Below, one piece after another: positions 160 to 1,259 of a stretch of DNA of 37,592 nt. The notes under the pieces are model-generated. The model was not told where the DNA came from and did no database searches. It worked only from the letters and a program-made list of their open reading frames with translations. Origin of the DNA: Bdellovibrionales bacterium (GTDB lineage Bacteria; Bdellovibrionota; Bdellovibrionia; Bdellovibrionales; UBA1609). The DNA lies in NCBI GenBank assembly GCA_015163875.1, contig JAAOIH010000011.1, forward strand, positions 1 through 37,592, read 5' to 3'. Position 1 is the first letter of the stretch, and the number at the start of each line of letters is the position of its first letter. The translations under genes and the position numbers were made by a program.

Positions 160-188
160 CGCCACCTCCTAAAATGATACTTATTTTA

Positions 189-284
189 TGGTTTTGATTT
201 TTTTTGCAAAACAAGGCTCTCTGCGACTCAGCCCGAAGGTATGCTTGAGCAGATAGCCTTGTTTTGAAAAAAAAATCAAAACCA
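189..284. repeat. Long imperfect inverted repeat (29-nt arms 190-218/255-283, one mismatch) enclosing a structured GC-richer loop
   Basis: ggttttgattttttttgcaaaacaaggct ... agccttgttttgaaaaaaaaatcaaaacc. Confidence 0.9.
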
Positions 285-292
285 AAAACACA

Positions 293-359: not shown

Positions 360-1259
360 ATGTCAAAAATAAGCATTAAAGAAATGTTAGAAGCAGGGGT
401 ACATTTCGGCCATCAGTCTGATCGCTGGAACCCAAAAATGAAGCCTTACATTTACACATCTAAACAAGGCACTCACATTATAGATTTACAACAAACTTTG
501 CGATACAGCACTATTGCTTTAGAATTTGTAAAAAAATTAGGATCACAGGGTAAAAAAATTGTTTTTGTTGGAACAAAAACTCAAGCTGCTCCAGTTGTAA
601 AAGCTGCAGCTGAATCTTGCGGACAATATTTTGTTGTAAAAAGATGGCTTGGTGGAACTTTAACTAATTTTGCTACAATTAAAAACAGCATTGATTGGCT
701 TAAAAAAATTGATCAAATGAGAGAAAAAGGTCAGCTTGATCAATTTGTTAAAAAAGAAAAACTTCGTATTGAAAAAAAATATATTAAAATGGATGATTTT
801 TTAGAGGGGATTAAAGAATTAAAAGAGGCACCTGATGCAGTTTTTATCATCGACACTGTTAAAGAAAAAACCGCAGTTCTTGAAGCTCGCAAATTAGGAC
901 TTCCTGTAATTGGAGTGGTAGACACTAATGCAAATCCAGAATTAATTGACTACCCTATTCCAGGAAATGATGACTCAATAAAAGCAATTACTTTATTTTG
1001 TCAGGCAGTTGCAGATTCTTACAACGAAGGTAAAAAAGATTTTAAAGAGCAAGTGTCTAATGAAAAATACGACAACAGCTCTAAAGAAAAAACACAAACT
1101 GAAGAAGGCGGCACTGGTAGAAAAATGGTAGCAGCCGGAATGGCAGAAGCAGTTGAGATTGAAGAAGAATTAGAAAGTAAAAAAACAGAAACAATAGACA
1201 AGGCAACTCAAGAACAATTAGACAAATTAAAAAAACAAAGTGAGTGGACTAAAAAATAA
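360..1259 (+). CDS. rpsB: 30S ribosomal protein S2 with Lys/Glu-rich C-terminal extension
   Basis: MLEAGVHFGHQ..WNPKMKPYI, KRWLGGTLTNF, PVIGVVDTNANP..PGNDDSIKAI motifs; followed by tsf. Confidence 0.97.
   Translation: MSKISIKEMLEAGVHFGHQSDRWNPKMKPYIYTSKQGTHIIDLQQTLRYSTIALEFVKKLGSQGKKIVFVGTKTQAAPVVKAAAESCGQYFVVKRWLGGTLTNFATIKNSIDWLKKIDQMREKGQLDQFVKKEKLRIEKKYIKMDDFLEGIKELKEAPDAVFIIDTVKEKTAVLEARKLGLPVIGVVDTNANPELIDYPIPGNDDSIKAITLFCQAVADSYNEGKKDFKEQVSNEKYDNSSKEKTQTEEGGTGRKMVAAGMAEAVEIEEELESKKTETIDKATQEQLDKLKKQSEWTKK

Follow-up and report, generated by a model that had tools for sequence, protein, structure and literature searches.

The Rickettsia palindromic elements (RPE) are dispersed palindromes of about 100 bp that were reportedly described by Ogata in 2000 and 2002 as lying in-frame in protein genes. 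No transposase is known for them. The arms of RPE are said to lose their identity over time (PMC6649704). REPs have stems of 5-13 bp and carry a GTAG/CGTC tag (PMC3733652). In nematomorph mitochondria, perfect palindromes are maintained within genes and are gained and lost between species, for which template switching has been proposed (PMC6649704).

The hairpin analyzed in this study lies upstream of rpsB in the window, i.e., the whole stretch of DNA that was analyzed (37.6 kb). The inverted-repeat search identified two arms of 40 nt at 185-224 and 249-288, which are 93% complementary and separated by a gap of 24 nt. The features of the locus are:

185..288, no strand: whole palindromic element, rpsB copy (40-nt arms 93% complementary, hairpin score 28)
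185..224, plus strand: left arm, with an A+T-rich outer part and a G+C-richer inner part, end GGCTCTCTGC at 224
225..248, minus strand: conserved loop with the family core, read on the minus strand as TCAAGCATACCTTCGGGCTGAGTC, GC/GC on either side
249..288, plus strand: right arm (inverted-repeat search)
360..1259, plus strand: rpsB (ribosomal protein S2; ORF list), a neighbour only, outside the element

This is by far the strongest hairpin of the window. In 40 Markov-2 shuffles of the window, the best hairpin scored 13.2 on average and 17 at most, compared to 28 here. The z-scores of the RNA fold are -8.6 and -8.9, one per strand. The runner-up inverted repeat by length in the window is 73% complementary and A+T-rich. 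A preliminary description had reported a 29-bp inverted repeat with arms at 189-217 and 256-284 matching at 28 of 29 positions, which agrees with a direct reading of the sequence. The repeat is real, but its length had been set too short, since the arms measure 40 nt and span 185-288. The loop quoted there includes the innermost pairs of the main stem (TCTGC/GCAGA), and the true loop extends from 225 to 248. In the pattern search, the loop core was matched at 222-241 (minus strand) with one mismatch. A T-tract precedes and an A-tract follows the inner stem, and the view that this is not a normal intrinsic terminator fits the terminator scan, which called no terminator at 185-288. Just beyond the hairpin, at 81-159 of the window, a 36-nt repeat (CCYAAAAAGTAAGGCTTAAAATAATTAAGTCTTGCC) occurs twice, 43 nt apart, and contains a small inverted repeat of its own (AAGGCTTAA/TTAAGTCTT).

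The genome of the window (G000; 1.29 Mb, 50 contigs) was scanned for hairpins over all 1,294,250 bases and compared to the sole other genome of the genus (G001). A first genome search with the rpsB hairpin returned further places in G000, with the similarity mainly in the loop. The loop pattern TYCCTTMGGGCTGAGTCGCA, with up to three mismatches, was found at seven places in G000 compared to none for the reversed control. Each pattern match is a long hairpin, and the arm sequences differ among most copies. A covariance model built from the pattern-matched copies identified 16 distinct loci in G000, to which the hairpin scan added C46:26924 and C9:1593, resulting in about 18 copies. The loop core GCTCRGGCATCCCTTCGGGCTGAGTCGC occurs about 18 times in G000 and about 15 times in G001, where 14 to 15 loci were found by the covariance model and one more by the pattern. 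All 23 hairpins of G000 scoring at least 24 belong either to the loop family (14) or to a second repeat with CTTGAGGGTCAGGTACACCC (nine). The genome-wide search for arms and loop, a check suggested at the outset, shows the rpsB hairpin to be one member of this dispersed family.

The elements range between 78 and 105 bp in length, with arms mostly of 28-45 bp. Subfamily A has the layout stem, GC, TCAGGCATCCCTTCGGGCTGAGTC, GC, stem. The loop of subfamily B is CATCCCTNCGGGCTGAAC-GC or a near variant, found in valS, C1, C9:1593, C46 and, in G001, in L044 and C7. The inner 12 bp of the stem have a G+C content of about 52%, compared to about 24% in the remainder. Across 27 copies, mismatches affect 39 of 949 arm pairs. 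In the 13 ungapped copies of subfamily A, 96% of the cells are paired and 14 pairs contain double changes; their covariation score of 0.63, compared to 0.18 in shuffles, was reached in none of 500 shuffles. At C9:16402 and L043 part of the loop is lost and the arms are still nearly perfect.

For most copies, no relationship is seen between the outer arms (8 of 210 pairs alike at p<=0.01). Likeness was restricted to orthologous pairs (menD, recA) and to a clique of four G000 copies with common outer arms (C9:16402, C9:19150, queC and groES), of which three of the four sites are empty in G001. Judged from these sequences, the clique is a recent burst in which the entire hairpin was copied. Another copy, near a contig end (L010, C20:13230 of G000), is chimeric: its left half resembles the groES/recQ copies, and its right half and the next 300 bp are a near-copy of the site downstream of secF. 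It looks recombinant, either by recombination between copies or by an assembly join. In L044 (C16:45162 of G001), the right half of the hairpin and its flank form a tandem duplication of about 78 bp, and arms are duplicated in a similar way next to L031, C9:19150 and C50:11959. This pattern suggests replication slippage at the hairpins.

About nine copies in G000 are located 12-41 nt beyond a stop codon in sense orientation. The copies at rpsB, oxyR/ABC and menD and one of the tuf pair are antisense, and the pair in valS comprises one sense and one antisense copy. Three inverted pairs (C8, C11, C33) are each ordered plus, then minus. In-frame copies within the coding sequence were found in valS (two) and menD; in a comparison of the menD insertion with PDB sequences, the insert region was left unaligned. 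Downstream of secF, a lipoprotein-like, Ppx-like ORF (LLKHPFGLSRRRALIIL...) is present in both species (L009, 1457-2683; L043, 352-1569). The copy at this site appears to provide the N-terminal/start region of the ORF in both species, a possible case of exaptation.

The clearest pair of a filled and an empty site is valS. In G000, two in-frame hairpins (55 aa) are present and ValS has a length of 969 aa, compared to 914 aa in G001. The G001 orthologue is 86% identical over residues 2-599 and has no hairpins, the flanks being bridged by a short linker. The insert, which carries a near-direct repeat at both ends, is likewise absent from the other relatives read. The intergenic sites C9:16402, C9:19150, groES and C8:7067 are empty in G001, and those of L037, L040 and L041 are empty in G000. 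Filled in both species are the sites at rpsB, menD, recA, the tuf/tRNA spacer, secF and gspF. The comparison of the two genomes shows that copies are mobile, having been gained or lost between the sister species. No adjoining direct repeat indicating a target-site duplication was found beside 13 single copies. Scattered copies, filled and empty sites and in-frame insertions bear out the MITE-like element that had been one of the initial readings.

The shared sites were used to follow the arms. At menD, nine arm pairs have changed between G000 and G001, and five of these are double changes that are paired in both species. Mismatches amount to 1 of 41 and 3 of 39 pairs in the two species. Assuming that the arms diverge independently at roughly the 28% difference of the aligned region, about one pair in four should be mismatched in each species (P = 7e-5 and 0.004, roughly estimated). 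The two species have nearly the same flanks at rpsB, and a mirrored block of 14-17 nt is replaced in both arms. These alignments show arms that remain paired during sequence turnover, with both arms changing together at shared sites. Multi-base compensated changes in hairpins can arise from template switching (PMC8794818). Since the compensated arm changes found here match this expected footprint, template switching is inferred as their probable origin.

The rpsB hairpin is therefore best regarded, with good though not full confidence, as a copy of a non-autonomous mobile palindrome. Template switching would keep its arms complementary and renew their sequence, and its copies would perhaps be spread in trans. 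During replication, the folded strand would serve as the template for its partner arm (quasipalindrome template switching). Such self-templating would repair and rewrite both arms jointly, and the unpaired loop would be passed on normally. Spreading would perhaps depend on a single-strand transposase of the HUH/Y1 type that acts, or once acted, in trans. A stricter version, in which the loop is the sole heritable identity, self-templated synthesis replaces the arm sequences once a copy has inserted and copies spread by a single-strand mechanism, is possible but doubtful. Capture of the outer arms from local flanks was tested and was not significant (p=0.13). If the loop-only version were true, this would be a selfish element whose copies turn into perfect palindromes that are unrelated to one another in sequence.

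No reverse transcriptase was found in G000 or G001. A single Y1_Tnp domain (PF01797) was found in G000 (L278, C35:2294-2632), between copies of the second repeat, and none in G001. The Y1 transposase was rejected as the mobilizer of the loop family, as it is absent from G001 and the one in G000 adjoins a different repeat. The second hairpin repeat with CTTGAGGGTCAGGTACACCC is located on C26, C24, C19, C35, C48 and at C1:42055 (L071, L069, L065, L079, L127, L131). It may form a REP/RAYT-type pair with L278, because L278 lies between copies of this repeat and no other Y1 transposase was found in G000. SbcD attacks palindromes. No SbcD was found above the cut-off here, and it is missing too from most of the bacterial family; its loss was therefore rejected as a special cause, and its absence would be at most permissive.

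Compared to the described systems, the family resembles RPE as a dispersed palindrome, with 78-105 bp and about 18 copies, slightly shorter than typical RPE (100-150 bp), and in its in-frame insertion into protein genes (valS, with two copies absent in G001, and menD). It differs in that the shared menD and rpsB copies stay paired, with arms changing jointly, in that the family signature is the loop and not the arms, and in its host, the Bdellovibrionales. No NCBIfam model was matched by the encoded peptides, a comparison to RPE at the peptide level only. REP/BIME elements are likewise extragenic hairpins with dimers in inverted order, and intragenic REP copies are known; in contrast, RAYT was not found in G001 and the single Y1_Tnp of G000 lies beside another repeat. 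MITEs are short, non-autonomous, dispersed, mobile and palindromic, and filled and empty sites are present here, whereas no fixed terminal inverted repeat sequence, target-site duplication or parental transposon was seen. Nematomorph coding palindromes are not described as dispersed copies of one homologous family sharing a conserved loop. The hairpins are not assigned to RPE, REP or classical MITEs, because each of these groups has one or more tested features that are lacking here. The RPE-like coding palindromes may serve as a working analogy.

Of the other explanations, the strongest holds that the hairpins are bidirectional terminators, 3′-end stabilizers or protein-bound RNA under selection for pairing, with their spread tolerated at gene ends. 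The sense copies 12-41 nt after stop codons (about nine in G000), the G+C-rich inner stem (about 52% compared to 24% elsewhere) and the very strong covariation would fit, and selection for the hairpin could also account for the covariation. However, the loop orientation is mixed (rpsB, oxyR/ABC and menD antisense), expression should suffer from copies within menD and valS, the rpsB hairpin has no terminator call, no consistent T-tract occurs across copies, and sites are frequently empty in the sister species. This explanation is regarded as improbable. Covariation needs no RNA function, because copies occur in both gene orientations and in coding sequence, and for the copy midway in menD, selection of an RNA hairpin seems less likely, given that its loop is antisense within a coding gene. 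The structured RNA considered earlier thus gains from the covariation and loses by the orientations and intragenic copies, and it is not favoured.

A REP/BIME-type element moved in trans by RAYT (Y1 transposase) would explain the extragenic preference and the three REP-dimer-like pairs on C8, C11 and C33. It is considered very unlikely, since the stems are mostly 28-53 bp and not 5-13 bp, the loop is conserved and the stem variable, and G001 is without Y1_Tnp. Neither GTAG nor CGTC is present as a tag: the flanks of 13 copies contain one chance GTAG/CTAC and no CGTC.

The chance that the hairpin is an RNA leader controlling rpsB via S2 or another factor is slight. The model match lies 95 nt from the rpsB start and the orthologous site is filled in G001, but the same hairpin occurs at about 17 sites other than rpsB, its loop is antisense to the gene, and no Rfam family reached the gathering score, the sub-threshold matches being of the miRNA and leader types that any long hairpin yields. 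The covariance model, proposed as a further check across relatives, was applied to ten named relatives (L188-L197) and gave no convincing match within the 2 kb around rpsB. The novel ribosomal-protein leader of the preliminary description is not supported in view of the many non-ribosomal sites, the antisense loop and this result in the ten relatives.

An amplification or assembly artefact from chimeric inverted reads can practically be dismissed: the genomes consist of fragments and were probably assembled from metagenomes, and C20:13230 looks recombinant at a contig end, but two genomes with separate assemblies carry the loop family at orthologous sites, reading frames are intact across valS and menD, and the empty sites are precise.

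RpsB is closest to that of Bdellovibrionales MAGs with 50-53% identity, in a collection that may omit same-genus or very near genomes; with this low identity, the genus is therefore placed on a distant branch. The covariance model matched 4 of 141 genomes of the order (G000, G001, G134 and, doubtfully, G037). G134, of the same family and a different genus, has one copy with 34-bp arms and the core CATCCCTTCGGGCTGAA. Among 144 genomes of the class, the 16-base core CATCCCTKCGGGCTGA has 13 occurrences, confined to G000, G001 and G134; the reversed core was absent from the genomes listed among these 144. The exact 20-mer core had no match in the GTDB r220 contigs, and the loop core had none in IMG/VR or plasmids. 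Membership of G037, from another family of the order, is doubtful: its hairpins L032 and L034 are a different repeated long hairpin with the short loop GACYGACTGAGTC and have only TGAGTCGCA in common with the loop family. The palindrome family thus appears largely restricted to one genus.

The hairpin upstream of rpsB belongs to a new family of selfish palindromes and is not a ribosomal-protein switch. The family adds the Bdellovibrionales to the hosts of protein-coding palindromes, of which those in Rickettsia are the best known, and includes a filled and empty pair in valS, a gene expected to be essential. Covariation in a stem is usually taken to prove that an RNA is functional. In this family, the pairing persists in copies that are mobile, occur in both orientations and lie within genes such as menD. 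It therefore lends itself to testing whether covariation can arise from hairpin-templated synthesis alone.
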